Source of the DNA: an uncultured beta proteobacterium
GTDB lineage: Bacteria > Pseudomonadota > Gammaproteobacteria > Burkholderiales > Rhodocyclaceae
Length of the DNA: 64,000 nucleotides
Reading direction: 5' to 3'
Assembly (NCBI GenBank): GCA_903908065.1
Contig: CAIVQO010000033.1
Span: 1 to 64,000 of the forward strand
Position 1 is the stretch's first letter. Each line of letters begins with the position of its first letter. Shown here piece after piece: positions 20,964 to 63,047 of this stretch. Both the position numbers and the translations under genes were made by a program. The notes below the pieces were generated by a model that worked only from the letters and a program-made list of their open reading frames with translations, searched no databases and was not told the DNA's origin.

Positions 20964-23900
20964 AACAGCACCCGCTCGATGCCGCCGGCATTGGCGGCGC
21001 GCACGTAGTCCTGCAGCCAGTCCGGACCCAGCAGGCTCTTCGCCATTTCGACGACGATGTAATCCGCGGTGGTCGCGGCATCGCTTTCGTAGCGTGACAG
21101 TCCTTGCAGGCAGGAGGGACAGGAAGTGAGGATCTTCACGGCCGAACTTGCGCAATTCGCCGCAGTACCGGCGCCGACTTCTGGATTGGCGCGCAGGCGT
21201 TGTGCACCGGCCTCGATTTCCTGCTGCTTGCGGAAGCGCACCTGGGTCGACACATCGGGCCGGGTCACCGCCAGAGTGCCGGATTCGCCGCAGCAGCGGT
21301 CGTTGAGATCCACGCGTTGCCCCATCAACGCGTTCGCCACCTTGATGCCGGAGTGGTGCTTCATCGGCGTGTGGCAGGGCTCGTGGTACATGTACTGAAC
21401 GCCCTTAACGCCGTCGAGGCGGATGCCCTTTTCGAACAGCCATTCGTGGATGTCCACCAGCCGGCAGCCGGGGAAGATCTTGCCGAATTCGTACTTCAGC
21501 AGCTGGTCCATGCAGGTGCCGCAGGACACCACCACCGTCTTGATGTCGAGGTAGTTGAGGGTGTTGGCGACGCGGTGGAACAGCACGCGGTTGGCGGTGG
21601 TGATGGCCTGGCCCTTGTCCTCGTCGCCCGACGAGGTCTGCGGATAGCCGCAGCACAGGTAGCCCGGCGGCAGCACCGTGGTGGCGCCGGCATGCCAGAG
21701 CATGGCCTGGGTGGCGATGCCGACCTGCGAGAACAGGCGTTCCGAGCCGCAACCGGGGAAGTAGAACACCGCTTCCGCATCCTCGCTTGCACGCTTCGGA
21801 TCGCGGATCACCGGGATCAGCGCGTCGTCCTCGATATCCAGCATGGCGCGCGAGGTGCGTGCCGGTACCGTTCGTGGCAGCGGCTTGTTGAGGAAGTGGA
21901 TCACCTGCGCCTTGGGCTCGGGCCGGCCCAGGCTGGCTGGCGGATGTGCAATGCCGTCCTGGATCAGGCCCAAGGACTTGGCCACGCGGTGCCCCAGGCG
22001 CTGCGCCTTGTAGCCGAGCTGGATCATGCCGCCACGCACCAGCTTGATGGTGGCCGGGTCGGTGGCGGAGAGGAAGGCCATCGCCGCCGCCGAGCCGGGG
22101 TTGAATTTCTTCTTGCCCTGGCGGCGCAGGAAATTGCGCATCGCCACCGAGACATCGCCGAAGTCGATGTCCACCGGGCAGGGATTGACGCACTTGTGGC
22201 ATACCGTGCAGTGGTCGGCGACATCGCCGAACTCGTCGAAATGCTGCAATGACACGCCACGCCGGGTCTGCTCTTCGTAGAGGAAAGCCTCGATTAGCAG
22301 CGAGGCGCCGAGGATCTTGTTGCGCGGGCTGTAGAGCAGGTTGGCGCGCGGCACGTGGGTCGAGCACACCGGCTTGCACTTGCCGCAGCGCAGGCAGTTC
22401 TTGATCGACTCGGAGATGCGACCGATGTCGGACTGCTCCATGATCAGCGATTCGACGCCAAGCAGCGCGAACGAAGGCGTGTAGGCGTTGGTCAGGTCGG
22501 CGCGCAGCTGCGGCAGGTCCATCAGCTTGCCGCGGTTGAAGCGGCCTTCGGGGTCGATCCGGCGCTTGTACTCGCGGAAGGGGCCGATCTCCTCGGCGCC
22601 GAGGAACTCCAGCTTGGTGATGCCAATGCCATGTTCGCCGGAAATCACCCCGCCCAGCGACTTGGCCAGCGCCATGATGCGCTCGACGGTGCGGTAGGCC
22701 GTCTGCAGCATGGCGTAGTTGTCGGAGTTCACCGGGATGTTGGTATGCACGTTGCCGTCGCCGGCGTGCATGTGCAGCGCGACGAAGAGGCGGCCCTTGA
22801 GCACGTCCTGGTGCAGGGCATCGATTCGCTCCAGCACTGGGCGATAGGCGACGCCGTCGAAGATCTCTTCCAGTAGCGGCCGCAGTTCCTGCTTCCAGGA
22901 GACGCGCAGCTCGTAGCTCTGCAGCTTGCCGAACACCGTGGCCGGTACCGGATGCCATAGCTTCACCGGCACCGCGCGCGGCGGCACCGGCAGCGGATGC
23001 CAGTGGCGAGGCATGGTTGGCGGCGGCGGCGGTGGCCAGGCGCCGTCGAGGTTGTCGAGCAGGCCTTGCCAGCGCGAACGCACCTCGGCGATGGTGGCCT
23101 GCGCCTGGTCGCGGCGGTCGCCGATCAGCTCCGCCTTGTCCAGCCCGGTGTCGCCCATGTGCAGCGGAAGTTCGCCGGCGAGGAATTCCGCCAGCGCGTC
23201 GCACAGCTCGATCTTGTTGCGGATCGACAGTTCGATGTTGAAGCGCTCGATGCCTTCGCAGTAGTCGCCCATCCGCGGCAGCGGAATGACGACGTCCTCA
23301 TTGACCTTGAAGGCGTTGGTATGGCGCGAGATCGCGGCGGTGCGCGCGCGGTCGAGCCAGAAGCGCTTGCGCGCCTCGGGGCTGACGGCGATGAAGCCCT
23401 CGCCGCCGCGGGCGTTGGCCATGCGCACCACCTCGGAGGTGGCGCGCATCACGGCGGCTTCGTCTTCGCCGACGATGTCGCCGATCAGCACCATCTTCGG
23501 TCGGCCGTGGCGCTTGGCCTTGGTGGCATAGCCGACGGCCCTGACATAGCGTTCGTCGAGGTGTTCCAGGCCCGCCAGCTGCACGCCGGCAGCGAGGCCC
23601 GCGCCGCCCGGCTTGAAGTAGTCGGTGATCTCGACGATCGAAGGCACCGCCTCGCCGACGCGGCCGAAGAATTCGAGGCAGACGGTGCGCGTCACCGGCG
23701 GCATGCGGTGCAGGATCCACACCGCCGAGGTGATCAGGCCGTCGCAGCCCTCCTTCTGCACGCCGGGCAGGCCGGCGAGGAACTTGTCGGTCACATCTTT
23801 GCCCAGCCCGGTCTTACGGAAGGTGGTGCCGGGAATCGAGAGGAATTCCTCGCGCTCGACACGGCCGTCGTCTGCCAGGTGCTTGACGCGGAAGGTGGCT

Positions 23901-24874
23901 GTTTCCTGCTCGTGGATCTTGCCCAGGTTGTGGCCGATGCGTTCCACTTCTAGCCAGCGGCCCTCGGTGTCGACCATCTTCCACGAGGCCAGGTTGTCCA
24001 GCGCCGTGCCCCACAGCACGGCCTTCTTGCCGCCGGCGTTCATGGCGATGTTGCCGCCGATGCAGGAGGCATCGGCCGAGGTCGGATCGCAGGCGAAGAC
24101 GCGCCCGGCTTCCTCGGCGCGCTCCATGACGCGGCGGGTGACCACTCCGGCGCCGGTGTAGATCGTGCCATAGCTGCGGGTCACGCCGGGCAGTGTGGCC
24201 TCGGTCACCGGCCCCATGTCGATCAGCTTCTCAGTATTGATCACCGCCGAGCGCGCATCCAGCGGTACAGCGCCACCGGTGTAGCCGGTGCCGCCGCCGC
24301 GCGGGATGATGGTCAGGCCGAGCGCGATGCAGTCACGCACCAGCGGCGCTACTTCGGCTTCGGTATCGGGTGTCAGCACGACGAAGGGATATTCGACGCG
24401 CCAGTCGGTGGCGTCCGTCACGTGCGATACGCGCGCCAGGCCGTCGAAGCCGATGTTGTCGCGGCGCGTGTGGCGCACCAGGCTGCGCAGGGCCTTGGCG
24501 CGCAGGGCGCGGGTTTCGTCGAACCAGCGCTCGAAGGACTGCACCGCCTCGCGCGCCGCATCGAGCAGGCGCGCTACGCGTTCATTGCCTTCGCGCCGCT
24601 TGTCGATTTCACGCAGGCGGTGGCGCAGGGCCTCGACCAGCGCCTCGCGCCGTTCGCGGTTGCCAAGCAGGTCGTCTTCCAGGTAGGGGTTGCGCCGCAC
24701 CACCCAGATGTCGCCGAGCACTTCGTAGAGCATGCGCGCCGAGCGGCCGGTCACGCGTTCCGCGCGCAGTTCGGTCAGCGTTGCCCACGCCTCGGCGCCG
24801 AGCAGGCGAATCACGATTTCGCGGTCGGAAAACGAGGTGTAGTTATAGGGAATTTCGCGCAGGCGGGCGGTCAT
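20960..24874 (-). CDS. DUF3683 FAD-linked oxidase / Fe-S oxidoreductase fusion (GlcD-GlcF-like)
   Basis: A 1304-aa flavo-iron-sulphur oxidoreductase. Layout: N-terminal DUF3683 region ([26 protein letters not shown], to about 170). A PCMH-type FAD domain follows with [16 protein letters not shown] near residue 191. Next is an FAD-oxidase C-terminal domain with [19 protein letters not shown] and [13 protein letters not shown]. Two 4Fe-4S motifs follow, [11 protein letters not shown] near 825 and [12 protein letters not shown] near 890. The C-terminus has two CCG cysteine-rich domains ([20 protein letters not shown]). The chain equals a GlcD/D-lactate-dehydrogenase flavoprotein fused to a GlcF-type Fe-S subunit, so oxidation of a 2-hydroxyacid feeding the quinone pool is inferred; the substrate is unknown. 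No Shine-Dalgarno is visible at the ATG at 24874. One exact iterated decamer lies at 21171. Confidence 0.88.
21171..21180 (+). repeat. Iterated decamer GCGCCGACTT, copy 1
   Basis: Exact copy inside the FAD/Fe-S gene, where the minus-strand codons read EVGAG. See the finding on the iterated motif. Confidence 0.7.
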
Positions 24875-25025
24875 GCGAAGGCGGGGAAGGGCGGAACATG
24901 GCATTTTAGGCCATTGCACCGCAACATTGGAGCGCGGCAAGACCCTGGCGCGGATACGGACACCCTTGTAATTTGATGTCATCGCCACCATATTGGCGCT
25001 GTTTGCCCCATCGATGGAGACCTCC

Positions 25026-25664
25026 ATGCCTACCCGTCTGCTCGCCGTGCTTGCTTTCGTCGCCACCCTGCTCTCGGGCTGCGGCTACAACCAGATCCAG
25101 ATCAACGACGAGGGCGTGAACGCCGCCTGGTCCGAGGTGCTCAACCAGTACAAGCGGCGTGCCGACCTGATTCCCAACCTGGTGCAGACGGTGCAGGGCT
25201 ATGCCGCGCACGAGAAGGAGGTACTGACCCGCGTCACCGAGGCGCGCGCCAACGTTGCCGGGATCAAGGCCACGCCGGAGCTGGTCAACGATCCGGCTGC
25301 CCTGGCGGCTTTCCAGAAGGCGCAGGGTGAACTGTCCGGCGCACTGTCGCGGCTGCTGGTGGTGGCGGAGAACTATCCGCAGCTCAAGGCCGACGCCAAC
25401 TTTCGCGATCTGCAGGCCCAGCTCGAAGGCACGGAAAATCGCATCACCGTGGCGCGCAACCGTTACATCAAGTCGGTGCAGGAGTACAACATTTCGGTAC
25501 GGACCTTCCCCAACAACCTGACGGCCATGGTCATGGGCTGGACGCCGAAGGCGAACTTCACGGTGGAAGACGAAAAAGCGATCTCGAACGCGCCCAAGGT
25601 CAATTTCGGCGCGCCTGCCGCCGTCCCGCTAGCGCCGACTTCTGCGCCCGCGCCTGCAAAATGA
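25026..25664 (+). CDS. lemA: LemA family lipoprotein
   Basis: A 212-aa LemA protein. The ATG at 25026 has GGAGA at 25016-25020 and gives [25 protein letters not shown] with lipobox LSGC; the track's TTG start is rejected. The helical LemA core is typical ([41 protein letters not shown] ... [32 protein letters not shown]). LemA proteins commonly precede TPM-domain genes, as here; function is poorly defined. An exact iterated decamer lies in the Pro/Ala-rich C-terminal tail ([11 protein letters not shown]). Confidence 0.93.
25632..25641 (+). repeat. Iterated decamer GCGCCGACTT, copy 2
   Basis: Exact copy in the Pro/Ala-rich tail of LemA (codons read APTS), a permissive protein position. Confidence 0.7.
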
Positions 25665-25668
25665 ATTC

Positions 25669-26490
<822 letters not shown>

Positions 26491-27024: not shown

Positions 27025-28377
27025 ATGTCTGCCCACCGCTCCCTGCCGCGTGAACTGCTGCACCTGGCCTGGCCGGTGCTGATCGCCCAGGCGGCGGTGA
27101 TGGCCACCAGCGTGATCGACACCCTGATGGCTGGCCGTTTGTCAGCGCTGGACCTCGCCGCCGTCGGCATCGGCGCCAGCATCTACGCCACGGTCTTCGT
27201 CACCGCCATGGGCGTGCTGCTGGCGCTGACGCCGGTGGTTTCGCACCATTACGGCGCCGGCCGCTACACCGAGATCGGCGCCGACGTGCGCCAGTGCGCA
27301 TGGCTGGCAGTGCTGTTGTCGATTGCTACCTTCACGCTGCTGAAGAACCCCGATCCGCTGCTGGCGATTTCGCGCCTGACGCCCGACGTCGAAGTCCGAG
27401 TCCGCGCCTACCTCGACGGCGTGGCCTGGGCCGCACCCGGGGTGCTGTTCTTCCGCGTCTTTTTCGGCTTTACCACCGGCATTGGCCGGCCACGCCCGGT
27501 GATGGCCTTCAATCTGCTGGGCCTTTCGCTGAAGGTGCCGCTCAATGCCATCTTCATGTACGGCCACTTCGGCCTGCCGGCGCTGGGCGGCGCCGGCTGC
27601 GGCTGGTCCACGGCGGTCACCGCCTGGATCATGACGCTGGCCGCCTGGTGGTGGTGCCGGCGCGATGCCGACTATGGGCCCTACGCCGTGTTCGCCCGCT
27701 TCGATCCGCCACGTCCGGCGGCCTTGCGCGAACTCCTGAAGCTGGGCCTGCCGATGGGCGTCACCTTCCTGGTCGACGTCACCGCCTTCACCTTCATGGC
27801 CCTGTTCGTCGCCCGACTCGGCGCCGCCACCTCGGCCGCGCACCAGATCGCCGCCAATGTCGCCGTTTTCGTCTTCATGGTGCCTCTGTCGCTGGGCAAT
27901 GCCACCGGCGTGCTGGTGGGCCAGGCGCTGGGCGCAGGCGAAAGTCGGCGCGCGCGACACGCCGGCCTGCTCGGCCTGGGAGTCGCCATCGCCATCGCCG
28001 CCGCGACCGGCAGCGTGATCTGGTTCGGCGCCGGGGCGCTGGCGCGCGGCTATACCACCGACACCGCCGTGGCTTCCGCCGCCACCGGCTTGCTCGCCAT
28101 CGTCGCCCTGTATCACGTAGTCGACGCGGTGCAGGCGGTGATGGCCCAGGTGCTGCGTGGCTACAAGCGGGCCACGGCGCCGATGGTGATCTATGCAGTG
28201 GCCTTGTGGGGCGTCGGTCTTGGCGGTGGCTACCTGCTGGCGCTCACCGACAGCCTGGGCGCAGCGCGAGGCGCCGCCGGTTTCTGGATGGCTGCGGTGG
28301 CCAGCCTGACGCTCGCCGGAATGGGCGTGACGGGGTATTTCCTGTGGATATCGCGCCAGAGCAAGCTACCAGGATGA
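27025..28377 (+). CDS. MATE family efflux transporter (NorM type)
   Basis: A 450-aa inner-membrane cation-coupled drug exporter with about 12 hydrophobic segments in two repeats. Typical wording: LAWPVLIAQAAVMATSVIDTLMAGRLSALDLAAVGIGASIYATVF in repeat one and HQIAANVAVFVFMVPLSLGNATGVLVGQALGAGE in repeat two. No regulator is adjacent. An exact iterated decamer occurs in antisense orientation (GESRRARH) and another lies just past the stop. Confidence 0.92.
   Translation: MSAHRSLPRELLHLAWPVLIAQAAVMATSVIDTLMAGRLSALDLAAVGIGASIYATVFVTAMGVLLALTPVVSHHYGAGRYTEIGADVRQCAWLAVLLSIATFTLLKNPDPLLAISRLTPDVEVRVRAYLDGVAWAAPGVLFFRVFFGFTTGIGRPRPVMAFNLLGLSLKVPLNAIFMYGHFGLPALGGAGCGWSTAVTAWIMTLAAWWWCRRDADYGPYAVFARFDPPRPAALRELLKLGLPMGVTFLVDVTAFTFMALFVARLGAATSAAHQIAANVAVFVFMVPLSLGNATGVLVGQALGAGESRRARHAGLLGLGVAIAIAAATGSVIWFGAGALARGYTTDTAVASAATGLLAIVALYHVVDAVQAVMAQVLRGYKRATAPMVIYAVALWGVGLGGGYLLALTDSLGAARGAAGFWMAAVASLTLAGMGVTGYFLWISRQSKLPG
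27942..27951 (-). repeat. Iterated decamer GCGCCGACTT, copy 3
   Basis: Exact reverse-orientation copy in the MATE gene, where codons read ESRRA. Confidence 0.7.
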
Positions 28378-28394
28378 TCGACGCCGTAGCGGCG

Positions 28395-28404
28395 GCGCCG
28401 ACTT
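28395..28404 (+). repeat. Iterated decamer GCGCCGACTT, copy 4 (intergenic)
   Basis: Exact copy 18 nt past the MATE stop in non-coding DNA, extended as GCGCCGACTTTTG. Confidence 0.7.
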
Positions 28405-28545
28405 TTGCGACGATACAGACCAGCCGGCGCGGCATGGCCTGCGGCCAACTATGGCAATGACATCTTTTCCGGCTCGGTGCATACTCCGTGGGCATTGCAG
28501 GGAAGCCGTTTGCTTCCGTAACGATGCGGACCGGAGGTGTTGAGG

Positions 28546-33944: not shown

Positions 33945-34991
33945 TCAGGGAACGACGCGCAGCTTCAGGTCGGGCAGGTCGATCTTCAGCCGCGCCTGCA
34001 TCGCCGGGGTGGCACTCGCCGTGCCGTCAGCGCCGACTTTCAGCACCGCCTCGACGCCCAGCTTTTGCGCCATCGCCCGCCAATTGGCACCGGCGATGAA
34101 GATGGGTTTGGAGAGCGCGTCCGAGCGCATGCCCGCCGCCTTGCCCGGTTTGATCAGCACGGTCACCGCCTGCGTATCCTGGGCGGGGAAGCCGCTGCGC
34201 GGATCGAGCAGGTGGCAATAGCGCCGGCCGCCGATTTCGAAGTAACGATGGTAATCGCCCGAGGTGCCGATCGCTTCGCCGTCACGCAGCTCCAGCGTCG
34301 CCAGCGGCGCGCCGCCCACCGTCTGCGGTCGCGGATGCTGGATTCCGATGCGCCAGGGTGTGCCGGCGCCATCGCGGCTGCCCAGCGCCATCACATTGCC
34401 GCCAATGTTGATCAGGGCGTGGTCGATGCCCTCGGCCTTGAGCAGGGCGGCCGCACGGTCGAGTGCAACACCTTTCAGATAGCCGCCGAAATCCAGCGCC
34501 ACGGCCCGGTTGCGGCTCCTCACGCGGTTGCCATCCAGTTTCAGGTCCGCTATCGACGGCTTTTGTACCAGCAGCGCCTGGAGTGCCGGGCCATCGGGCA
34601 GGCGCGGCTGGATGTCGTCGGTATGAAAACCCCAGAGTGCAATCAGTCGGCCGATGCCGGGGTCGAACAGGTAATCGCCGCTGGCGGCGACAGCCTGCGC
34701 CTCGCTGATGTAGGCGGCGAACTCGGGCGACACGTCATGGGGGCGCCCGGTGGCGATGGCCTCGTTGAGCGCCGAGAGTTCGGAAGCCTGCCAGGCGTGG
34801 TAAGTCCGGTGCAGGTAGTCGAAGTCGCGCAGCACCTTGTCGGCGGCGCTTCGTGCCTTAGCTTCGGGCGCAGCGGCGATCGCCAGTTCGACCCGGGTGC
34901 CGAAGACGTAGGACTCCTGCCGCCACGGCTCGGGCTGCCCGCAGGCGGCGAGCAGGCCCGCCGCAACGAGCAGAATCAGGCGGCGGAACAA
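33945..34991 (-). CDS. apbE: FAD:protein FMN transferase ApbE (lipoprotein)
   Basis: A 348-aa periplasmic flavin transferase that attaches FMN covalently to Thr residues of target proteins such as RnfG/NqrC. I start at a TTG (34991), giving MFRRLILLVAAGLLAACGQPEP with a lipobox LAAC; it overlaps gshB, and no ATG fits, so the start is uncertain. Family motifs: LDFGGYLKGVALDRAAALLKAEGIDHALINIGGNVMALG, GDYHRYFEIGGRRYCHLLDPRSGFPA and TVLIKPGKAAGMRSDALSKPIFIAG. An iterated decamer is at 34030 in LKVGADG. Confidence 0.9.
   Translation of the reverse strand: MFRRLILLVAAGLLAACGQPEPWRQESYVFGTRVELAIAAAPEAKARSAADKVLRDFDYLHRTYHAWQASELSALNEAIATGRPHDVSPEFAAYISEAQAVAASGDYLFDPGIGRLIALWGFHTDDIQPRLPDGPALQALLVQKPSIADLKLDGNRVRSRNRAVALDFGGYLKGVALDRAAALLKAEGIDHALINIGGNVMALGSRDGAGTPWRIGIQHPRPQTVGGAPLATLELRDGEAIGTSGDYHRYFEIGGRRYCHLLDPRSGFPAQDTQAVTVLIKPGKAAGMRSDALSKPIFIAGANWRAMAQKLGVEAVLKVGADGTASATPAMQARLKIDLPDLKLRVVP
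34030..34039 (+). repeat. Iterated decamer GCGCCGACTT, copy 5
   Basis: Exact copy in apbE, where minus-strand codons read KVGAD before a Thr/Ala stretch. Confidence 0.7.
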
Positions 34992-41095: not shown

Positions 41096-43828
41096 ATGCC
41101 CACGCTGCTGCTCGTCGACGGCTCGTCCTACCTCTACCGCGCCTTCCACGCGCTGCCCGATTTGCGTACTTCGGGTGGGCAGCCGACCGGGGCGATCCGC
41201 GGCGTGCTGTCGATGCTGCGCGTGCTCGAAACCGACTATAAGGCAGATTTTCGCGCCGTGGTGTTCGACGCCAAGGGCAAGACCTTCCGCGACGACTGGT
41301 ACCCGGATTACAAGGCGCACCGCCCGCCGATGCCGGATGACCTGGTGGCACAGATCGAGCCGCTGCATGAGTGCATCCGTGCCGCCGGCTGGCCGCTGCT
41401 GATGGAATCCGGCGTCGAGGCCGACGACGTGATCGGAACCCTGGCGCGGCAGGCCGGCAATGCCGGCATCGACTGCGTGATTTCCACCGGCGACAAGGAC
41501 CTGGCGCAACTGGTGAACCAGCACGTCACGCTGGTAAACACCATGAACGGCGAAACCCTTGACATCGCCGGCGTGAAGGCCAAGTTCGGCGTACCGCCGG
41601 AACGCATCGTCGATTACCTGGCGCTGATTGGCGACAGCGTGGACAACGTGCCCGGCGTGGCGAAGGTCGGGCCGAAGACGGCGGTGAAGTGGCTGGATGC
41701 CTGGGGCTCGCTGGATGCCATCGTCGCCCATGCCGGCGAGATTGGCGGCGCGGTGGGCGAAAACCTGAGGAAGCACCTCGACTTCCTGCCGCTCGGCGTC
41801 AGGCTGGTGACGGTGGCCTGCGAGTTGCCGCTGCCGGTGGCGATCCATGACCTGGCGCCGCAGGCGCCGGATACGGCGAAACTCGAAGAACTCTACGCGC
41901 GGCTCGAATTCAAGGGCTGGCTGCGCGAATTGAAGGGCGAGGCGCCGGCACCGGCCGCGAGGCAGAAAGTCGCCGCAGCGCCAGCGCCGACTCTTGAGCC
42001 ACCGACCGGCGTCGAGCCCGACCGCAGCGGCTACCAGTGCATCCTCGATGCAGCCGGCTTGCATGACTGGCTGGTGCGCCTCGATGCCGCAGCGCTGGTG
42101 TCGCTCGACACCGAAACCACCGACCTCGATCCGCTACAGGCGCGGCTGGTAGGCATCTCCTTCGCCATCGAAGGCGGTCAGGCGGCCTATCTGCCGCTCG
42201 GCCATCATTACGCCGGCGCACCGCAGCAGTTGCCGCTGGCGGAAACACTGGAGAAACTCCGGCCCTGGCTGGAGTCGCCGCACCACGGCAAGCTCGGCCA
42301 GCACCTCAAGTACGACCGCCATGTCTTCGCCAACCATGGCGTGCAATTGCGCGGCATCGTCGAGGACACGCTACTGCAATCCTACGTGCTGGAATCCGAC
42401 AAGGCGCACGACCTTGGCGCCCTGGCGCTGCACCACTGCGGCTTGTCCACCATCAGTTACGACGCCGTCACCGGCAAAGGCGCCAACCGCATTTCCTTCG
42501 CCCAGGTCGACGTGGTTCGGGCCGCCGAGTATTCCGCCGAGGATGCCGATGTCACGCTGCGCGTGCATCAGGTGCTGCGCCCGCAGCTCGCCGCAGCCCC
42601 CGAACTGGAAGCGCTGTACCATGACCTCGAGTTGCCGGTGGCCGAGGTGCTGTTCCGTATGGAACGCAATGGCGTACTGATCGATGCCGATGCACTGGCG
42701 CGCCAGAGCGAGGAACTCGGGCGCAAGATCCTGGCCATCGAGGCCGAGGCCCAGCAACTCGCCGGGCAGCCCTTCAACCTCGCCTCGCCGAAGCAGCTGG
42801 CCGAGATCCTGTTCAACCAGCAGGGCCTGCCGGTGGTGAAGAAGACGCCCTCGGGCGCACCCTCGACCGACGAGGAAGTGCTGGAGAAGCTGGCCGAGGA
42901 CTACCCGCTGCCGAAGAAGATCCTCGAACACCGCAGCTTCGCCAAGCTGAAGAACACCTACACCGACAAGCTGCCGAAGATGATCAACCCGGCCACCGGC
43001 CGAGTGCACACCAGCTTCGGCCAGGCCACGGCAGTCACCGGGCGACTGGCCTCGACCGACCCCAACCTGCAGAACATTCCGATCCGCACTGCCGAGGGCC
43101 GCCGCATCCGCTCGGCCTTCATCGCGCCGGACGATTGCCGTATCGTCAGCGCCGACTATTCGCAGATCGAGCTGCGCATCATGGCGCACCTGTCCGACGA
43201 CCCGCGCCTGCTGGAAGCCTTCGCCCAAGGCGAGGACGTGCACCGCGCCACCGCCGGCGAGGTCTTCGGCCTGACGCCGATCGAGGTGACGAGCGAACAG
43301 CGGCGCGCGGCGAAGGCGATCAACTTCGGTTTGATCTACGGCATGAGCGCCTTCGGCCTAGCCAAGCAGATCGGCGTCGACCGGACAGCGGCGCAGGCCT
43401 ACATGGACCGCTACTTCGCGCGCTACCCCGGCGTCGCCCGCTACATGGAAGAAACCCGAGCCGTGGCGCGCGAAAAGGGCTACGTCGAAACCGTGTTCGG
43501 CCGTCGCCTGTGGCTGCCCGAGATACGTTCCAGCAACGCCGGGCGCCGCCAGGGTGCGGAACGCGCGGCGATCAACGCGCCGATGCAGGGCACCGCTGCC
43601 GACCTGATCAAGCGCGCCATGCTGGCGGTGCAGGGCTGGCTCGACAACCAAGGACTGAAGTCGCTTCTGATGCTGCAGGTGCATGACGAACTGGTGCTGG
43701 AAGTCCCTGTCGGCGAACTGGACCTGCTGCGCGAAGCGCTGCCGAAGCTGATGGGCGGCGTGGCGCAGCTCAAGGTGCCGCTGCTGGTCGAAGTCGGCGT
43801 TGGCGCAAACTGGGACGCGGCGCACTGA
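41096..43828 (+). CDS. polA: DNA polymerase I
   Basis: A 910-aa repair and Okazaki-fragment polymerase. The start is the ATG at 41096 (MPTLLLVDGSSYLYRAFHALPDL); the track's upstream start lies in the LOG gene. The 5'-3' exonuclease domain covers about 1-290. After an Ala/Pro linker, the 3'-5' proofreading domain keeps its metal ligands (SLDTETTDLD near 335, KYDRHVF, YSAEDADVTLR near 478), so proofreading should be active. Polymerase motifs A, B and C: SADYSQIELRIMAHLSDD near 684, RRAAKAINFGLIYGMS and LQVHDELVLEVP near 862. No clear Shine-Dalgarno precedes the start. Confidence 0.97.
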   Translation: MPTLLLVDGSSYLYRAFHALPDLRTSGGQPTGAIRGVLSMLRVLETDYKADFRAVVFDAKGKTFRDDWYPDYKAHRPPMPDDLVAQIEPLHECIRAAGWPLLMESGVEADDVIGTLARQAGNAGIDCVISTGDKDLAQLVNQHVTLVNTMNGETLDIAGVKAKFGVPPERIVDYLALIGDSVDNVPGVAKVGPKTAVKWLDAWGSLDAIVAHAGEIGGAVGENLRKHLDFLPLGVRLVTVACELPLPVAIHDLAPQAPDTAKLEELYARLEFKGWLRELKGEAPAPAARQKVAAAPAPTLEPPTGVEPDRSGYQCILDAAGLHDWLVRLDAAALVSLDTETTDLDPLQARLVGISFAIEGGQAAYLPLGHHYAGAPQQLPLAETLEKLRPWLESPHHGKLGQHLKYDRHVFANHGVQLRGIVEDTLLQSYVLESDKAHDLGALALHHCGLSTISYDAVTGKGANRISFAQVDVVRAAEYSAEDADVTLRVHQVLRPQLAAAPELEALYHDLELPVAEVLFRMERNGVLIDADALARQSEELGRKILAIEAEAQQLAGQPFNLASPKQLAEILFNQQGLPVVKKTPSGAPSTDEEVLEKLAEDYPLPKKILEHRSFAKLKNTYTDKLPKMINPATGRVHTSFGQATAVTGRLASTDPNLQNIPIRTAEGRRIRSAFIAPDDCRIVSADYSQIELRIMAHLSDDPRLLEAFAQGEDVHRATAGEVFGLTPIEVTSEQRRAAKAINFGLIYGMSAFGLAKQIGVDRTAAQAYMDRYFARYPGVARYMEETRAVAREKGYVETVFGRRLWLPEIRSSNAGRRQGAERAAINAPMQGTAADLIKRAMLAVQGWLDNQGLKSLLMLQVHDELVLEVPVGELDLLREALPKLMGGVAQLKVPLLVEVGVGANWDAAH

Positions 43829-45707: not shown

Positions 45708-46768
45708 CCTGTGGCTGGGGCGGCCAGGAGATTCGCATCCTGGAAGAGTCCAGCGGCCTGATCGGTCGCAGCCACGCGGTGAGCGTCGCCTGCCCGGCCC
45801 ACGCGCGCATGGCCACCGAGGCGGCACGCTTTGGCGTGGCGGTAACGCCGTTGCCGATCGAGTTCAAGACCGTCGCCGGCTTCCTTGCGCTACGCCGGCA
45901 TCTGGCCGACGCCAAGCCCGACGTGGTGAATACCCACAGCTCGGCCGATTCCTGGCTGGTGGCGCTGGCCTGCGCCACACTGCCCTCGCCGCCGGCCATC
46001 GTGCGCACCCGCCACATCTCGGCGCCGGTATCGGCCAACTTTGCCAACCGCTGGCTCTACCGCCAGGCGGCGCGCGTGGCAACCACTGGCGAAAGCCTGC
46101 GTCGGCACCTGATGGAGACGCTCGGGCTCGATCCGGCGCAGGTTGTATCGGTGCCGACCGGCATCGATACGCAACGCTTCGCTCCCGCTGACAAGGCGGC
46201 GGCCAAAGTGGCCGTGGGCCTCGACCCGCAACATCGGCACCTGGGCATCGTCGCCACGCTGCGCAGTTGGAAGGGCCACCTGTTCCTGCTCGAGGCTTTC
46301 GCGCAATTGGCACGACCCGACCTGCGCCTGGTCATCGTCGGCGAAGGACCGATGCGCGGCCCGATCGACGAGAAAGTTGCCGCGCTCGGCCTTGGCGAGC
46401 ACGTCATCCTCGCCGGCCAGCGCACCGATCCGGAACGCTGGTTGCAGGCGCTCGACATCTTCTGCCTGCCCTCCTACGCCAACGAGGGCGTGCCGCAGGC
46501 GATACTGCAGGCCATGCTGTGCGCCCTGCCCATCGTCACCACGCCGGTCGGCGCCATCCTCGAAGCGGTGGTCGATCAACGCAGTGCGCTGGTGGCCGCG
46601 CCCAAGGATGCCAACGCCCTGGCAACGGCAATTGGCTGCCTGCTCGACGACCCCGCGCTCGCTGCCGCCCTCGGCGCCGAAGCGCGCCGTGTCGCCAGCG
46701 CCGACTTTTCGAAGGAGGCCATGCTCGATCGCATGGAATCCCTCTTCCGCCAGGCCACATCGACATGA
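45683..46768 (+). CDS. Glycosyltransferase family 4 (WGGQE-type N-terminus)
   Basis: A 361-aa GT-B glycosyltransferase, probably acting on a lipid-linked LPS core or O-antigen intermediate at the cytoplasmic face. The N-terminus MKILHTEASCGWGGQEIRILEES is typical of a betaproteobacterial core/O-antigen transferase group. The acceptor domain has TRHISAPV. The donor domain has GIVATLRSWKGHLFLLEAFAQL, LVIVGEGPMRGPI and LDIFCLPSYANEGVPQAILQAMLCALPIVTTPVGAI. The start is the GTG at 45683, since the upstream near-copy is out of frame. An iterated decamer is at 46698 (SADFS). Confidence 0.88.
   Translation: MKILHTEASCGWGGQEIRILEESSGLIGRSHAVSVACPAHARMATEAARFGVAVTPLPIEFKTVAGFLALRRHLADAKPDVVNTHSSADSWLVALACATLPSPPAIVRTRHISAPVSANFANRWLYRQAARVATTGESLRRHLMETLGLDPAQVVSVPTGIDTQRFAPADKAAAKVAVGLDPQHRHLGIVATLRSWKGHLFLLEAFAQLARPDLRLVIVGEGPMRGPIDEKVAALGLGEHVILAGQRTDPERWLQALDIFCLPSYANEGVPQAILQAMLCALPIVTTPVGAILEAVVDQRSALVAAPKDANALATAIGCLLDDPALAAALGAEARRVASADFSKEAMLDRMESLFRQATST
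46698..46707 (+). repeat. Iterated decamer GCGCCGACTT, copy 6
   Basis: Exact copy near the 3' end of the first GT4 gene; codons read SADF. Flank CCA-GCGCCGACTT-TT matches the extended consensus. Confidence 0.7.
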
Positions 46769-48496: not shown

Positions 48497-49563
48497 AGTT
48501 CGCCCTGTTTACCACCAACCTCGCCGGTGGCGGCGCCGAGAAGGCGCTCGCAAAGATTGCCGCCGGGCTGGCGGCGCGTGGCCATGAGGTCGATTTCTTC
48601 GTCTGCGAGGATGCCGGAGCTTACCCGCCGCCGCCGGGCTGTCGCTTCAGCGCGCTGTCCGCGCGGGCCGGCCACGGCTGGCTGGGGAAGCGGCGTCTGG
48701 CGTGGAAGCTGAAACGGACGCTGGCAGCGAACCCGCCCGACCTGCTGGTGTCGACCCTGCCTTTCGCCGATGAGGTCGCCGCGCTGGCGCGCCTGCCGCG
48801 CCATGCCTGCCGCATCGCTAACACGCTTTCGGCCGAGATCGCACGCCTGCCTGCCGCCAAGGCGACGCGGCGCGAAGCACGCTACCGAAACCTATACGCC
48901 GGGCGGCCCTTAGTCGCCGTGTCACGCGGCGTGGCCGATGACCTGGTTGCAAACTTCTGCATCGATGCGAAACGCATCCGCACGATAGCCAATCCCTTCG
49001 ACGTCGCCCCGATCCGCGCGCTGGCGGCCGAACCCTGCCCGGCGCGGCCCACCGAGCCCTACCTGCTGCATGTCGGCCGCTTCGCCGCGCAGAAGCGGCA
49101 CGACCTGCTGCTCGAGGCCTTTGCCCGGCTCGACGGTAGGCAAAGACTGGTACTGCTGACCCCGCCCGACCTCGCGCTGGCGGCGCTGATCGCCCGCCGC
49201 GGACTGGAACGCCGTGTCAACGTCGCCGACTTCCAGGCCAACCCCTACCCTTGGATGGCGGGCGCAGAGCTGCTGGTGCTCTGCTCGGACCACGAAGGCC
49301 TGCCCAACGTGCTGATCGAGGCGCTGGCCTGTGGCACGCGGGTAGTCAGCACCGACTGCCCCAGTGGGCCGCGCGAAATTCTCGTCGGGGACCTGGCGCG
49401 CGGGCTGGTGCCCTGCGGCGATGCCGCGGCACTGGCCGACGCAATACAGGCCGCGTTGGCGTCGCCGCGCCCGAACGCAGGCTCCGTGGCGGCGGCGCTG
49501 GCACCCTACGAATCGGCGACGGCGCTCGATGCCTGGGAAGCGCTGGCGCGGGAGATCGCCTGA
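48493..49563 (+). CDS. Glycosyltransferase family 4
   Basis: A 356-aa GT-B enzyme. The N-terminus FALFTTNLAGGGAEKALAKIAAGLAARGHEVDFFVCE is the acceptor-side Rossmann start. The donor side has EPYLLHVGRFAAQKRHDLLLEAFARL, VNVADFQANPYPWMAGAELLVLCSDHEGLPNVLIEALACGTRVVSTDCPSGPREIL with the E-x7-E motif. The product resembles PelF/WbbX-type transferases generally, but sugar specificity is unreadable. ATGA overlap upstream and TGATG overlap downstream. Confidence 0.88.
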   Translation: MKFALFTTNLAGGGAEKALAKIAAGLAARGHEVDFFVCEDAGAYPPPPGCRFSALSARAGHGWLGKRRLAWKLKRTLAANPPDLLVSTLPFADEVAALARLPRHACRIANTLSAEIARLPAAKATRREARYRNLYAGRPLVAVSRGVADDLVANFCIDAKRIRTIANPFDVAPIRALAAEPCPARPTEPYLLHVGRFAAQKRHDLLLEAFARLDGRQRLVLLTPPDLALAALIARRGLERRVNVADFQANPYPWMAGAELLVLCSDHEGLPNVLIEALACGTRVVSTDCPSGPREILVGDLARGLVPCGDAAALADAIQAALASPRPNAGSVAAALAPYESATALDAWEALAREIA

Positions 49564-51398
49564 TGTGCGGCATCCTGCTTGCCGTCGGAGAGTGTTTTCG
49601 CGCCGATTTCGACGCCGCTCTGGCGAGCTTGCGCACGCGCGGACCCGACGCGCGCGAGGTACTGGCCCATGGCGACGCGCTGCTCGGCCATGCCCGCCTG
49701 GCGGTGATCGACATCGCCGGCGGGCGCCAACCGATGCTCACGCCCGACGGCCGCCTGGCGATGGTCTACAACGGCGAGATCTATAACTTCGCCGCCCTGC
49801 GCCGCGAACTCGAAGCCGCCGGCCACGCCTTCGCCACCCGCTCGGACAGCGAGGTGCTGCTCGCCGGCTACCGGCACTGGGGCGAGGCGGTGCTGGACAA
49901 GCTTGATGGCATGTTCGCCTTCGCCATCCACGATCTCGCCGACGGCAGCGTATTCCTCGCCCGCGACCGCGTCGGCATCAAGCCCTTGTTCTGGGGAGAA
50001 CATGCCGGCGGACTGGTGGCCGCCTCGACGCTGGCGCCATTTTTCGCGCTCGGTTCCTTCCCGAAAAAGCTCGACGCCGAAGGCCTGCGCGACTACCTTG
50101 CGTTCCAGACGCCACTCGCGCCCCGCACACTGGTGCGCGACATCCATGCCCTGCCGCCGGGCGCCTGCCTCAGGTGGAGGGGCGGGGCGGCGGCCACGGC
50201 GCGCCAATGGTGGACCATCCCCGACGCCTGCGAAGCCGCGCCTGATCCGGACGCGCTGGCAGCGGAAACCGACATCCTGCTGGCGCAGGCAGTCAAGGAC
50301 CAGCTGGTGGCCGACGTGCCGCTGGGTGCCTTCCTTTCCGGCGGCATCGATTCCAGCCTCGTCGTGCATTACATGGCGCAGGCCGGAGCCAAGCCGATCC
50401 GGACCTTCAGCGTGCGCTTCGCCGAGGCCGGTTTCGACGAGAGCCCGGCGGCCCGCGCCGTGGCCGAAAAATATGCCACCGAGCACCACGTGCTGGATGC
50501 GCCCCAGCTCGATGCCGCGACCCTCGCGGCGGCGCTGGCCGACCTCGACCAGCCGCTGGCCGACCCGGCCTACGTTCCTACCTGGGCCTTGTCGCGCCTG
50601 ACGCGGCAGCATGTCACCGTGGCGCTGTCGGGCGACGGCGGCGACGAATTGTTCGGTGGCTATCCGCGCTTCCTCGACACTGCCGACCGGCATCCCGACA
50701 GCGTGACCAAGCGCAGCCTACGCGCCCTCATCGCACACGGCCTGGCCCCGGCCGGACTGACACGCCGCGCGCTGGCCGGTGCCGATCTGCTGCTCTACCG
50801 CCGCCTCGAACTCGGCGACTATCCGGGCAGCCGCAAGGATCTGCGCCGCTATCTCGCGCCGGAGGTTGCGCGCGCGGCCAGACCCGATGCCACGCTGGAA
50901 GGTTGGCGCGAACTCGCCGCGCGCCACGGCAACTACGACCGTGGTGCCCTGCTGCGCGCCGACCTGTGGACCTATCTCTCGGAAAACTGCCTGCCCAAGA
51001 CCGACCGCGCCAGCATGGGCCACGGCCTCGAAGTGCGGGTGCCGCTGCTGGCCAACGCGATCCAGGACCGCATGCTGAGGCTACCCGCGAGTGCGCATTT
51101 CGATGCGGGCGGCGGCAAGGCCATCCTGCGCGCACTGGCGCGGCGGCACCTGCCGGATGCTGTGTGGAACCGCGAAAAGCATGGCTTCTCCGTGCCGCTG
51201 CGCGCCAACTTCGCCGGCGCCTGGCGCGACTGGGGTGATTCCCAGGTCGCGGCGGCTAAAATGCGCGCACCCTGGCTCGATGCCGGCGCCATCGCGAGGC
51301 TTTGGCAGGAGGCTAGGCGCGGTGAAGGCAATCCGCGCCTGGCGTATACCTTTGCCGTGCTGCTGGCCTGGCTGGAAACCCATCCGCTGGACGACTGA
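49563..51398 (+). CDS. AsnB-like glutamine-dependent amidotransferase in glycan locus
   Basis: A 611-aa asparagine-synthetase-type enzyme. The class II glutaminase domain begins with the nucleophile Cys2 (MCGILLAVGE) and contains LGHARLAVIDIAGGRQPM and YNGEIYNF. The synthetase domain has the PP-loop FLSGGIDSSLV near residue 259 and VALSGDGGDELFGGYPRF. Paralogues inside O-antigen and exopolysaccharide clusters often amidate uronic acids or amino-sugar carboxylates rather than make asparagine; that role is inferred from location. The start ATG overlaps the previous stop by one base. Confidence 0.9.
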   Translation: MCGILLAVGECFRADFDAALASLRTRGPDAREVLAHGDALLGHARLAVIDIAGGRQPMLTPDGRLAMVYNGEIYNFAALRRELEAAGHAFATRSDSEVLLAGYRHWGEAVLDKLDGMFAFAIHDLADGSVFLARDRVGIKPLFWGEHAGGLVAASTLAPFFALGSFPKKLDAEGLRDYLAFQTPLAPRTLVRDIHALPPGACLRWRGGAAATARQWWTIPDACEAAPDPDALAAETDILLAQAVKDQLVADVPLGAFLSGGIDSSLVVHYMAQAGAKPIRTFSVRFAEAGFDESPAARAVAEKYATEHHVLDAPQLDAATLAAALADLDQPLADPAYVPTWALSRLTRQHVTVALSGDGGDELFGGYPRFLDTADRHPDSVTKRSLRALIAHGLAPAGLTRRALAGADLLLYRRLELGDYPGSRKDLRRYLAPEVARAARPDATLEGWRELAARHGNYDRGALLRADLWTYLSENCLPKTDRASMGHGLEVRVPLLANAIQDRMLRLPASAHFDAGGGKAILRALARRHLPDAVWNREKHGFSVPLRANFAGAWRDWGDSQVAAAKMRAPWLDAGAIARLWQEARRGEGNPRLAYTFAVLLAWLETHPLDD

Positions 51399-51963: not shown

Positions 51964-52677
51964 ATGCGCAAGAACGGCCGCACCGCCCGCAAACTAAGGA
52001 AACTCGCCTGGCGCTTCAGCCAGCCCGACTGGGCCGACAATCATGGCGTCATGCTGCCGGTGAAGCATCGCCTGGTCTCGCCCGGCATCGCGCGCGAAAT
52101 CTACATGGGCGACTACGAGGCCAAGGAGATCGAAATCATCTCCAAGCGTCTGACCAGTGATGACGTGGTGTTCGAGGTCGGCGCCGGGCTCGGCTACCTT
52201 TCCGCCTACTGCGCCAAGCGTGTCGGCAGCGACAAGGTATTCACCTACGAAGCCAACCCCGAGCTGATCCCCCTGATCCGCGAGACCCACGCCCGCAATG
52301 CGGTGGCGCCGACCGTGACCAATGCCCTGCTGGCGCAGGGTGAGGGCGAGCGCGAGTTCCGCCTCGAGGACGACTTCTGGGCCTCGTCGGCACATCGCGA
52401 GGGCGGGCGCGCGATCACCGTCAGGCAGGTCGACCTGAATGCCGAGCTGGCGCGCATCCGGCCGACCTTCATGATCGTCGACATCGAGGGCGGCGAGGCC
52501 GAGTTCTTCGCCGGCGCCGACTTGTCGCCCGTGCAAAGGATTTGCGTCGAGACCCATCCCGACGTGCTCGGCGACCGCGTGCTGTCGGAAATGTTCGCCG
52601 GTCTGGTAGCCAAGGGCTTCGCCCTCGATTTCTCGCTGATCCGCAAGAACGTGTTCTTCTTCCATCGGGCCGCATGA
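51964..52677 (+). CDS. FkbM family methyltransferase
   Basis: A 237-aa SAM methyltransferase. The FkbM pattern is DDVVFEVGAGLGYLSAYCAKRVGSDKVFTYEANPELIPLIRETHARN and, later, FMIVDIEGGEAEFFAGADLSPVQRICVETHPDVLG. In polysaccharide loci such enzymes O-methylate sugars. AGG occurs before the ATG at 51964. It overlaps the next gene by 4 nt. An exact iterated decamer is at 52514. Confidence 0.9.
   Translation: MRKNGRTARKLRKLAWRFSQPDWADNHGVMLPVKHRLVSPGIAREIYMGDYEAKEIEIISKRLTSDDVVFEVGAGLGYLSAYCAKRVGSDKVFTYEANPELIPLIRETHARNAVAPTVTNALLAQGEGEREFRLEDDFWASSAHREGGRAITVRQVDLNAELARIRPTFMIVDIEGGEAEFFAGADLSPVQRICVETHPDVLGDRVLSEMFAGLVAKGFALDFSLIRKNVFFFHRAA
52514..52523 (+). repeat. Iterated decamer GCGCCGACTT, copy 7
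   Basis: Exact copy in the FkbM gene; codons read GADL. Confidence 0.7.
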
Positions 52678-53651
52678 CGCAACGCGATGTCCTGCTGGTC
52701 GCGCACGGCAGCCTGCATCCCGCGCTGCGCCGGGAACTCGCCGCACGCGGCCTGACACTGCGTGAAAGTCGGCGCTGGCAGGACGCCGATCGCAGCGAAC
52801 CGCAGCGCATCCTCGGCGCCTATACCTGGTTCTACGAGGGCCTGCGCCATCCACTGACGATCTGGGGCATGCGGCGCTGGCTGCGCTCGCAGGGCATACC
52901 GCTCTTCGTCTGGAACCAGGATGCGCCGCATTACCTGAACCGCGCGCCCTGGCGCCTCAACCTACTCGATCGCTATCGCCTCTACGACATCTACGCCACG
53001 CATACCCAGGTCGATACGCGGCGCGACTTCGCCGACAGCACGATGTACCTGCCGAACGCTGCCGACACCACCCGCTACCATTTGCGCGGCAGGACGCTCG
53101 AATCGCTGCGCGAGGATTCGGCCTACGAGTACGACGTCAGTTTCTTCGGCGCCATGGATGGCCGCCGCTACAAGGAAATGCAGGCGCGCCAGGAATTCTT
53201 CGCCGCGCTCGCGGAACAGCTGACGGCACGGGGAATACGTTTCCTGTTCCGCGAAGCGGCGGGCATGAGCGTCGAGCAACAGGTGGCGCTGATCCAGACT
53301 AGTCGCATCAACCTCAACTTCGGCGCTTCCTGCGACTATGGCGCCCCGATTGCGTCGGGCCTGCCGGAGCGCTGCTACGGCATCCCGGCCTGCGGCGGCT
53401 TCCTGCTCTGCGACCGTCGCACGCATGCGCGCGACGATGTCACACCCGGCACGGACTGGGCCGAGTTCGACGGCCTTGACGATTGCGTGACGCAGATCGA
53501 ACACTGGCTGGGCCACTACGCCGTCGCGCGCGAACTCGCCGAGCGTTGCCATGCCACGGTGATGGCGCGCCATACCTACGCCCATCGCGCGGCGAGCCTG
53601 CACCGGGTACTGCTCGACTGGCACGCAGGGCGCCGCGGAAGTTTGCAATGA
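52674..53651 (+). CDS. CgeB-like glycosyltransferase family 1 protein
   Basis: A 325-aa putative glycosyltransferase related to CgeB/DUF3880-type proteins. The N-terminal half (VLLVAHGSLHPALRRELAARGLTLRE ... IPLFVWNQDAPHYLNRAPWRLNLLDRY) and the C-terminal part (QTSRINLNFGASCDYGAPIASGLPERCYGIPACGGFLLCDRR...TPGTDWAEFDGLDD) show the pattern of donor-site residues with a conserved Arg-Cys/Glu loop. Specificity unknown. Start overlap ATGA; decamer at 52766 in antisense orientation (RESRRW). Confidence 0.7.
   Translation: MTQRDVLLVAHGSLHPALRRELAARGLTLRESRRWQDADRSEPQRILGAYTWFYEGLRHPLTIWGMRRWLRSQGIPLFVWNQDAPHYLNRAPWRLNLLDRYRLYDIYATHTQVDTRRDFADSTMYLPNAADTTRYHLRGRTLESLREDSAYEYDVSFFGAMDGRRYKEMQARQEFFAALAEQLTARGIRFLFREAAGMSVEQQVALIQTSRINLNFGASCDYGAPIASGLPERCYGIPACGGFLLCDRRTHARDDVTPGTDWAEFDGLDDCVTQIEHWLGHYAVARELAERCHATVMARHTYAHRAASLHRVLLDWHAGRRGSLQ
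52766..52775 (-). repeat. Iterated decamer GCGCCGACTT, copy 8
   Basis: Exact reverse copy in the CgeB-like gene; codons read ESRR. The extended flank CCA-GCGCCGACTT-T is conserved. It is only about 240 nt from copy 7. Confidence 0.7.
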
Positions 53652-59821: not shown

Positions 59822-59837
59822 ACCTGGCTTCCCAGGG

Positions 59838-60017: not shown

Positions 60018-60022
60018 AAATT

Positions 60023-60052
60023 CAGGGCGCGAGTTTCGCGCCCTGTTTCTTT
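60023..60052 (+). terminator. Intrinsic terminator of 6S RNA
   Basis: CAGGGCGCGA-GTT-TCGCGCCCTG followed by TTTCTTT: a perfect 10-bp stem with a 3-nt loop and a T-rich tail, 6 nt after the inferred end of 6S RNA. Confidence 0.9.
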
Positions 60053-60079
60053 ATGCCTTCGCGCGACTGGGTGGATGTC

Positions 60080-60552
<473 letters not shown>

Positions 60553-60556
<4 letters not shown>

Positions 60557-61353: not shown

Positions 61354-61523
61354 CTGCACGCAGCTGCAATCAAATTTCCGCAGTAGCGGATTAAAAAATT
61401 CAGTGCCGTTTGCTGCACCGCAGCGTGAGGTTTTGCGGATGGTGTTGCGGCAAAATCCGACGTTCCGCCAAAGGCGGAGTCATCTAAAAGACGAATAACA
61501 CATCAAGCCCCGTGGGAGTATCC

Positions 61524-63047
61524 ATGTCCGACCCTGTTACCCTGCAAGCCCTGTTGTCCACTGGTGCCGATGGCGCTGCCGCGATCGGCGCGCCCTCGCG
61601 CAAATCCCTCGCCCACGGAGAGCTGCGTGCCCTGATCGGGCGTACCGTTGCCCGCTTGAATGAGCTTGGCGCCGGCCGTAACGATCGCGTCGCCATCGTT
61701 CTGCCCAATGGCCCCGAGATGGCCGCCTGCTTTCTCGCGGTGGCCTCGGGCACGGCCTCGGCACCACTCAACCCGGCGTACCGCCAGGACGAATTCGAGT
61801 TCTACCTTGGCGACCTCAATGCCAAGCTGCTGATCGCCATGCAGGGCGTGGACACTCCGGCGCGTGCCGCCGCCGCCAAGCTTGGCGTGCCCATCGTCGA
61901 ACTGGTGCCCGATACCACGGCGGGCGCCGGAAGTTTCACGCTGCAAGGCGCGGGCGCGGGCAGCGCCGCCGCCAACGGCGGCTTCGCCCAGCCGGACGAC
62001 GTCGCCATGGTGCTGCACACCTCGGGCACCACCTCGCGGCCGAAGATCGTGCCGCTGTCGCAGAAAAACCTGTGCGCCTCGGCGCGCAACATCCGCGGCA
62101 CCCTGGCCTTCACCGCCAAGGACCGCGGCCTCAACATCATGCCGCTGTTCCATATCCACGGCCTGATCGCCGGCGTGCTGGCACCGATCTCGGCCGGCTC
62201 GGAAGTGTTCTGCTCGCCCGGCTTCGATGCGCTGAAGTTCTTCGGCTGGATGGACGAGTGCCATCCCACCTGGTACACCGCGGTGCCGACGATGCACCAG
62301 GCCATCCTCACCCGCGCCGGGCGCAACAAGGAGATCATCGCCAAGAATCCGCTGCGCTTCCTGCGTTCCTCATCGTCCTCCATTCCGCCGCAAGTCATCA
62401 CCGAACTCGAAGCCGTGTTCGGCGCGCCGCTGATCGAAGCCTACGGCATGACCGAGGCGACGCACCAAATGGCCAGCAACCCCTTGCCGCCCGCCACGCG
62501 GAAACCCGGCTCAGTCGGCCTGCCCGGCGGACCGGAAGTCGAAATCATGGATGAAGCCGGCAACATCCTGCCGGCCAACACCGTGGGCGAGATCGTGATC
62601 CGCGGCGCCAACGTCACCGTTGGCTATGAGAACAATCCCAAGGCCAATGCCGAGGGCTTCACCAACGGCTGGTTCCGCACCGGCGACCAGGGCGTCAAGG
62701 ACAGCGAGGGCTACATTTCGCTCACCGGCCGCCTCAAGGAGATCATCAACCGCGGTGGCGAGAAGATCTCGCCGCGCGAGATCGATGAAGTCATCATGGA
62801 CCACCCCGCCGTGGCGCAGGTGGTCTGCTTCGCCGTGCCCCACCCGAAGCTGGGCGAGGAAGTCGGCGCTGCCGTGGTGCTCAAGGAAGGTGCCAGCGCC
62901 ACCGAAAAGGACATCCAGGCTTTCGTCGCCACCCGAGTCGCCGACTTCAAGGTGCCGAAGAAGCTGCTGATCCTGCCCGAGATCCCCAAGGGGGCGACCG
63001 GCAAGCTGCAACGCATCGGCCTGGCGCAAAAGCTTGGCCTTGCCTGA
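61524..63047 (+). CDS. Acyl-CoA synthetase, oxalate-CoA ligase (AAE3/Pcs60)-like
   Basis: A 507-aa adenylate-forming ligase. The ATG at 61524 has GGGAG 6 nt upstream; the track's GTG is four codons earlier. ATP-binding loop VLHTSGTTSRPKIVPLSQ near residue 166 carries the TTSRPK spelling typical of AAE3/Pcs60 oxalyl-CoA synthetases rather than the general TTGxPK. LIEAYGMTEATHQMASNPLPP, GWFRTGDQG, GRLKEIINRGGEKISPREIDEV and PKGATGKLQR follow. Oxalate or another short dicarboxylate is the inferred substrate. The next gene is a TctC binding protein, consistent with organic-acid uptake. A decamer is at 62860. Confidence 0.82.
   Translation: MSDPVTLQALLSTGADGAAAIGAPSRKSLAHGELRALIGRTVARLNELGAGRNDRVAIVLPNGPEMAACFLAVASGTASAPLNPAYRQDEFEFYLGDLNAKLLIAMQGVDTPARAAAAKLGVPIVELVPDTTAGAGSFTLQGAGAGSAAANGGFAQPDDVAMVLHTSGTTSRPKIVPLSQKNLCASARNIRGTLAFTAKDRGLNIMPLFHIHGLIAGVLAPISAGSEVFCSPGFDALKFFGWMDECHPTWYTAVPTMHQAILTRAGRNKEIIAKNPLRFLRSSSSSIPPQVITELEAVFGAPLIEAYGMTEATHQMASNPLPPATRKPGSVGLPGGPEVEIMDEAGNILPANTVGEIVIRGANVTVGYENNPKANAEGFTNGWFRTGDQGVKDSEGYISLTGRLKEIINRGGEKISPREIDEVIMDHPAVAQVVCFAVPHPKLGEEVGAAVVLKEGASATEKDIQAFVATRVADFKVPKKLLILPEIPKGATGKLQRIGLAQKLGLA
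62860..62869 (-). repeat. Iterated decamer GCGCCGACTT, copy 9
   Basis: Exact reverse copy in the acyl-CoA ligase gene; codons read EVGA. Confidence 0.7.

Follow-up and report, generated by a model that had tools for sequence, protein, structure and literature searches.

DNA uptake sequences for natural transformation are known from the Neisseriaceae and the Pasteurellaceae only (PMC12616744). Hundreds of copies per genome, dialects that follow the phylogeny and a conserved inner core are their features (PMC12616744, PMC3630211). In the Neisseriaceae the DNA uptake sequence (DUS), for which the minor pilin ComP is the reader, is continuous, up to ∼13 nt long, has a CTG core and often occurs in inverted pairs. 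The uptake signal sequence (USS) of the Pasteurellaceae (Hin-USS and Apl-USS) is discontinuous, extends up to ∼32 bp, and combines a conserved GCGG core with AT-rich flanks, its blocks standing at fixed distance. Here we analysed a window of 64,000 nt (GenBank assembly GCA_903908065.1, contig CAIVQO010000033.1, positions 1 to 64,000; contig 33) from the genome of an uncultured bacterium of the Sulfuritalea group, Rhodocyclales (G000; 3.84 Mb in 103 contigs), in which a first-pass annotation had noticed an over-represented decamer, GCGCCGACTT. We found that this decamer is the core of a larger motif of 26 bp, which, judged from sequence comparisons, probably (at about 0.7) serves natural transformation as a DNA uptake (self-recognition) sequence.

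The nine exact copies of the decamer reported earlier (six on the plus and three on the minus strand) were all found at their positions, as compared with a mean of 0.70 in 100 dinucleotide shuffles of the window (largest value 3). When one mismatch was allowed, 50 copies were observed against 11.9 expected. The whole-genome count, which the first-pass annotation had proposed as a check, gave 468 copies (246 + and 222 −) versus 29 for the same pattern read backwards. From an alignment of 39 copies, we observed that the conservation extends 14 bases upstream of the decamer. An iterated profile, built from 440 kb of G000, yielded an asymmetric, bipartite motif of 26 bp, TCGCCGT-N4-CCAGCGCCGACTTTC; all the profile statistics come from this 440-kb sample, and the whole-genome figures from pattern counts. 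In the consensus, TCGCCGTRNCGCCAGCGCCGACTTTY, the blocks CGCCGT on the left and CCAGCGCCGACTTT on the right are separated by four bases under weak constraint, and the column values of the profile sum up to ∼34 bits. The N4 varies among the copies and there is no conservation outside the 26 bp.

In the 440 kb, 72 sites score 18 bits or more and none lies between 12 and 18 bits; in the reversed control no score reaches 16 bits. Because of this gap and the clean control, we concluded that the sites form a discrete class and not the extreme end of a bias in base composition. Their density in G000 is 1 per 6 kb, and the pattern CGCCGTN4CCAGCGCCGACTT, with up to 3 mismatches, is present 648 times genome-wide (control, 15). 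The decamer, which had been taken as the unit, does not by itself separate sites from background, whereas the profile does. A profile scan of the window detected 13 sites above 25 bits (Table 1). Seven of the nine decamers belong to true sites; the other two, at 52514 (+) and 62860 (−), are background. Among five near-copies that had been listed with them, those at 12097, 14477, 41984 and 43149 are true sites and the one at 4234 is not. Copies had also been thought to start at 21 kb; the first site is in fact at 7.6 kb, and this one as well as that at 49209 had been missed, the decamer being imperfect in both.

We then placed the sites relative to genes called by a simple codon-model caller on the same 440 kb (genes make up 80% of the sequence). 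Forty-eight of the 73 motif sites lie within genes, 20 are intergenic and 5 span gene ends. The coding sites occupy all six frames and are oriented with the gene in 23 cases and against it in 25. Shuffling of synonymous codons within the genes left 2–7 motif sites versus the 48 real ones; for the decamer, 31 copies in the coding sequence compare with a mean of 5.8 (largest 12) in 30 such shuffles. The earlier proposal that selection acts on DNA, not on protein, is thus upheld by the use of both strands and six frames, the intergenic copies, the codon shuffles, and a motif density that is maintained in relatives across 52–66% G+C. Gaps of less than 1 kb between sites are fewer than random (5 versus 10.8 ± 2.8) and the coefficient of variation is 0.82 versus 0.97 (P 0.07), which is suggestive of a spacing slightly more even than chance.

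The origin of the sites was followed in window-orthologous DNA of congeners, where 132 sites were compared at ∼75–90% identity. Among 789 aligned orthologous pairs, which are non-independent as one site is set against several genomes, the site is kept in 487 and absent in 302. The net gap is 0 in 181 of the 302 site-less pairs, in the others the gaps scatter over many sizes, and no class of 26–32 bp gaps was present among them. Many site-less partners are only a few bases off, e.g. GCGCCGGTTCTC for GCGCCGACTCTC. As there is no insertion-sized class of gaps, the motif sites come and go by substitution in place, not by insertion.

All the 31 genomes of the genus have the motif, in 36–704 copies with up to 2 mismatches (controls, 0–3). 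The exact 26-mer was found in GTDB r220 in genomes deposited under the titles of Sulfuritalea spp., Rhodocyclales/Rhodocyclaceae, one Rugosibacter and a few others, most of which are metagenome-assembled. In the family, hundreds of copies of the Sulfuritalea pattern occur in some other genera, and few or none in the remainder. Where a genome has only a few copies, these are often clustered on one contig or one 40-kb stretch (e.g. G111 and G085), as would be expected for imported DNA. In a tree of the ATP synthase locus, Sulfuritalea and the genomes G093, G067 and G037 form one clade (support 96), and the carriers G075, G108/G048 and G052 fall into a neighbouring group that includes non-carriers; in this group the loci of G074 and G033 are truncated and their branches unreliable.

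The consensus differs between genera, although some consensuses were built from 7–14 sites only. That of Sulfuritalea is TCGCCGTNNCGCCAGCGCCGACTTTC, and G067 has the same with TTTT. G037 has CGCCGTCCCGCCAGC[A/G]CCGACTTTT, G074 has CGCCGTNTCCCCAGCGTCGACTTTT, G093 has CGCCGTNTCACCAGCGCCGACTTTT, and G108 has TGCCGTCCCGCCAGCGCCGACTTT, where the left block is TGCCGT. The dialects, at a G+C content of 52–66%, end in ...GCGCCGACTTT, ...GCGTCGACTTTT or ...GC[A/G]CCGACTTTT, or read TCACCAGCGCCGACTTTT. G039 was presumed to be a non-carrier, with 3 matches to the Sulfuritalea pattern. De novo decamers in 100 kb of this genome revealed GACTGACTTT (11 copies versus 0.02 expected), and all 19 of the CTGACTTT words in the same 100 kb have CG at −13/−12, mostly as CGCCGT at the Sulfuritalea spacing. 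G039 has a divergent dialect in the same frame.

This frame, CGCCGT-N12-GACTTT, is common to most of the dialects. It occurs 441 times in G039 (control, 0) and is enriched in ∼10 genera of the family (g1, g8, g10, g19, g23, g38, g45, g46, g64 and, weakly, g66). Within genus g19 (G048, G108, G232, G315, G349, G408 and G418), its number ranges from 0 to 415 between species; the low-copy species partly carry TGCCGT instead, a dialect change within the genus. Searches of 80–120 kb each in G058, G051 and G092 revealed no dialect. Outside the family almost none of the 399 genomes across the order is enriched in the frame, and only G487, of another family, stands out: its 14 copies (control, 0) mix the GCGCCGACTTT and ...ACTGACTTT dialects, and could be either imported DNA or a sign that the system arose earlier and more widely.

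Loss is seen within the genus itself. In G017, a genome of 99% completeness, the pattern matches 36 times and the profile gives a single site in 194 kb, whereas 192 copies are present in G025, the genome nearest to it in the tree; loss of the motif is under way in G017. This genome keeps ComEC and minor pilins although the motif is nearly gone, which makes it a natural experiment in the search for a reader. Not counting the initial match, phage contigs of IMG/VR have one copy of the motif per 16.6 kb; this sample is conditioned and says little. In one IMG/VR fragment (L242:629-2123), a unit of 316 bp is repeated in tandem (4.7 copies with 91% matches). Besides a single motif site, each unit has a GCCTAACG...GTTAGGC pair resembling an integron attC, so that the array is possibly a repeated gene cassette carrying the motif.

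The first-pass annotation had also suggested looking for competence genes. These are present in G000 and are equally common in non-carriers. Of 122 relatives, 111 have ComEC, among them G000 and the motif-poor G017, and PF16732 (ComP_DUS) was detected in 177 of 200 relatives, with two matches in G000. As relatives lacking the motif have both as often, neither discriminates the carriers, and both were rejected as carrier markers. G000 has 17 prepilin-like genes. One of them (C98:129106-129876, − strand) encodes a 257-aa prepilin-like protein with no Pfam domain besides N_methyl, whose homologues in the genus fall mostly into two classes, at ≥69% or below ∼50% identity. This pilin is 73% identical between the carriers G000 and G002 and ∼40% in G017; it was nevertheless rejected as a general reader, because the near-complete carriers G010 (423 copies), G011 and G022 have no well-conserved form of it.

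The likeness to DNA uptake sequences that had been pointed out at first is supported by these data. With the DUS of the Neisseriaceae, the motif shares hundreds of copies, both strands, lineage dialects, a conserved inner core, sites arising by substitution, and a betaproteobacterial host with ComEC and minor pilins. It differs in being 26 bp in two blocks with the common core GACTT, in the absence of close inverted pairs, and in a density of 1 per 3–10 kb; there is no likeness in sequence, the Sulfuritalea consensus having no ATGCCGTCTGAA-like continuous stretch of 10–13 nt with CTG. As in the USS of the Pasteurellaceae, a conserved core and a second block stand at fixed distance, and the types are genome-wide and go by lineage; here, however, both blocks are G+C-rich and lack GCGG. 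The reverse complement, AAGTCGGCGC, starts with AAGT as does the Hin-USS AAGTGCGGT, which is likely a chance resemblance given the missing inner GCGG core. HIP1 of cyanobacteria (GCGATCGC), to which the decamer had also been likened, is an over-represented short sequence in coding and intergenic DNA too, but it is an 8-bp palindrome, unlike the asymmetric, bipartite motif.

The reading as an uptake sequence follows from the copy number, the origin by substitution, the independence of frame and strand, the dialects with a shared core, the sporadic loss, and the presence of ComEC and minor pilins. We consider it probable, to the same degree, that the system is independent of DUS and USS, one that works like them and is not a member of either, since its sequence, length and blocks are unlike both, only two families are known to have such systems, and no relevant paper turned up in the literature searched, either on the motif sequence or, for Sulfuritalea and Rhodocyclaceae, on transformation or uptake sequences. 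We infer that DNA with the motif would be taken up preferentially, that a dedicated reader would recognise it, and that transformation would drive its spread. Several observations weigh against this reading. The motif is longer than every DUS. Uptake sites in Neisseria and Haemophilus have a density of ∼1 per 1 kb, and the motif's is lower. No close inverted pairs that could act as terminators were seen in the 440 kb, where the smallest spacing is 237 bp. ComEC and PF16732 do not track the motif, and the sole reader-like pilin had to be rejected. Lastly, we found no paper reporting an uptake or transformation experiment for Sulfuritalea.

The main rival, which we regard as unlikely, is that the motif is the site of an intracellular chromosome-organising protein, such as a nucleoid-associated, condensin-loading or segregation factor. 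The fixed bipartite architecture, the genome-wide spread and the mildly even spacing would also fit such a protein, and motifs of the KOPS, Chi, matS and parS type are likewise bound by proteins and repeated along the chromosome. These are, however, short or palindromic, and polar or regionally confined, and the motif is none of these. The ori/ter polarity that had been raised at first does not appear: the strands are mixed within the G000 contigs, and the closed congener chromosome G002 has 177 + and 164 − sites. The 100 + sites among the G002 matches listed, in which − sites are not given, run from 0.05 to 2.44 Mb and leave no half without + sites. Strand bias along the replichores, of FtsK/KOPS or Chi type, was thus not seen in the G000 contigs or among the listed + sites of G002. 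Moreover, genus dialects, near-loss in G017 and absence in sister genera would be unusual for a core function. The ∼34 bits of the motif are far above the ∼13.5 bits estimated to specify 650 sites, and this excess suggests drive, not plain binding.

Less probable again is a Chi-type recombination or repair signal, or an intragenic signal for transcription or translation. Such signals would be consistent with a genome-wide presence, both coding and intergenic. Signals of the Chi and KOPS types are 5–8 bp in length and strand-biased, whereas the strands of the motif are mixed, and its nearly equal orientation with and against genes (23 and 25) speaks against a signal at the RNA level.

We hold it very improbable that a small mobile or REP-like repeat (a miniature inverted-repeat transposable element, MITE, or a RAYT-mobilised element) was inserted hundreds of times. 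The unit is long, sharply bounded and present in many copies, but it is asymmetric, with a variable N4 and nothing conserved beyond its 26 bp, and its copies are not insertions relative to empty orthologous sites; mobile insertion was rejected on the gap analysis. A restriction-modification or other methylation target, as had been envisaged, is more improbable still. Lineage-specific dialects could track enzyme changes, but the motif, at 26 bp and ∼34 bits, is far longer and richer in information than known restriction-modification sites, and such sites are usually avoided or number-neutral, whereas here the real sites exceed the controls 40-fold. That the motif results from codon usage or from a preference for Ala/Pro-rich peptides, to which the AVAPAPTF frame and the KVGAGDTA frame of the other strand (34 of 48 coding sites) might point, is refuted by the codon shuffles (2–7 versus 48), along with the intergenic sites, the opposite-strand frames and the motif in 52% G+C genomes, and has next to no chance of being correct.

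Table 1. Sites of the 26-bp motif in the window, and exact decamers that are background
Feature	Position	Strand	Score (bits)	Remarks
26-bp motif site	7580..7605	+	29.3	profile scan; decamer imperfect
26-bp motif site	12095..12120	−	38.2	profile scan; core GCGCCGACTG
26-bp motif site	14463..14488	+	35.5	profile scan; core GCGCCGACTG
26-bp motif site	21157..21182	+	30.7	exact decamer
26-bp motif site	25618..25643	+	31.4	exact decamer
26-bp motif site	27940..27965	−	26.4	exact decamer; left half weaker
26-bp motif site	28381..28406	+	31.0	exact decamer
26-bp motif site	34016..34041	+	38.0	exact decamer
26-bp motif site	41970..41995	+	35.9	profile scan; core GCGCCGACTC
26-bp motif site	43135..43160	+	33.1	profile scan; core GCGCCGACTA
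26-bp motif site	46684..46709	+	36.9	exact decamer
26-bp motif site	49209..49234	+	25.5	profile scan; imperfect
26-bp motif site	52764..52789	−	36.6	exact decamer
Background, not a site	52514..52523	+		exact decamer without the remaining motif
Background, not a site	62860..62869	−	6.0	exact decamer without the remaining motif

Two genes of the window were also noted. An open reading frame of 1368 aa (20960-25066, − strand) encodes a fused FAD/Fe-S dehydrogenase, in which GlcD-like (FAD) and GlcF/LdhH-like (Fe-S) parts share a single frame, and has a motif site near its C-terminal end. The other (49251-51398, + strand) is an asparagine-synthase-like amidotransferase of the XrtA/PEP-CTERM exopolysaccharide type.

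If the motif is an uptake sequence, a DNA-binding protein at the cell surface would prefer double-stranded DNA having the bipartite 26-bp site; this protein would probably be a minor pilin of the type IV system or a receptor associated with the pilus. The bound DNA would be pulled in, pass through ComEC and recombine at the homologous position, so that alleles with a better site would be taken up and inherited more often. Point mutation and biased replacement would then let sites accumulate wherever they are tolerated by the protein or the intergenic DNA, and each genus would retain the dialect that matches its own reader. It appears fairly likely, on a slightly weaker footing than the uptake function itself, that several genera of one Rhodocyclales family have an uptake-sequence system of their own, with at least five dialects and with lineages that have lost it. 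This would be the third family with such a system, and one whose bacteria are free-living in freshwater and groundwater. If true, such a third, independent case from the environment would make it possible to test by comparison why uptake sequences evolve, and would open the co-evolution of receptor and dialect, and dialects as barriers to gene flow, to comparison. With ∼10 genera having graded dialects, and losses in single species, identification of the reader by co-variation becomes directly possible, and the motif could be a practical key to the transformation of the hard-to-manipulate Rhodocyclales.

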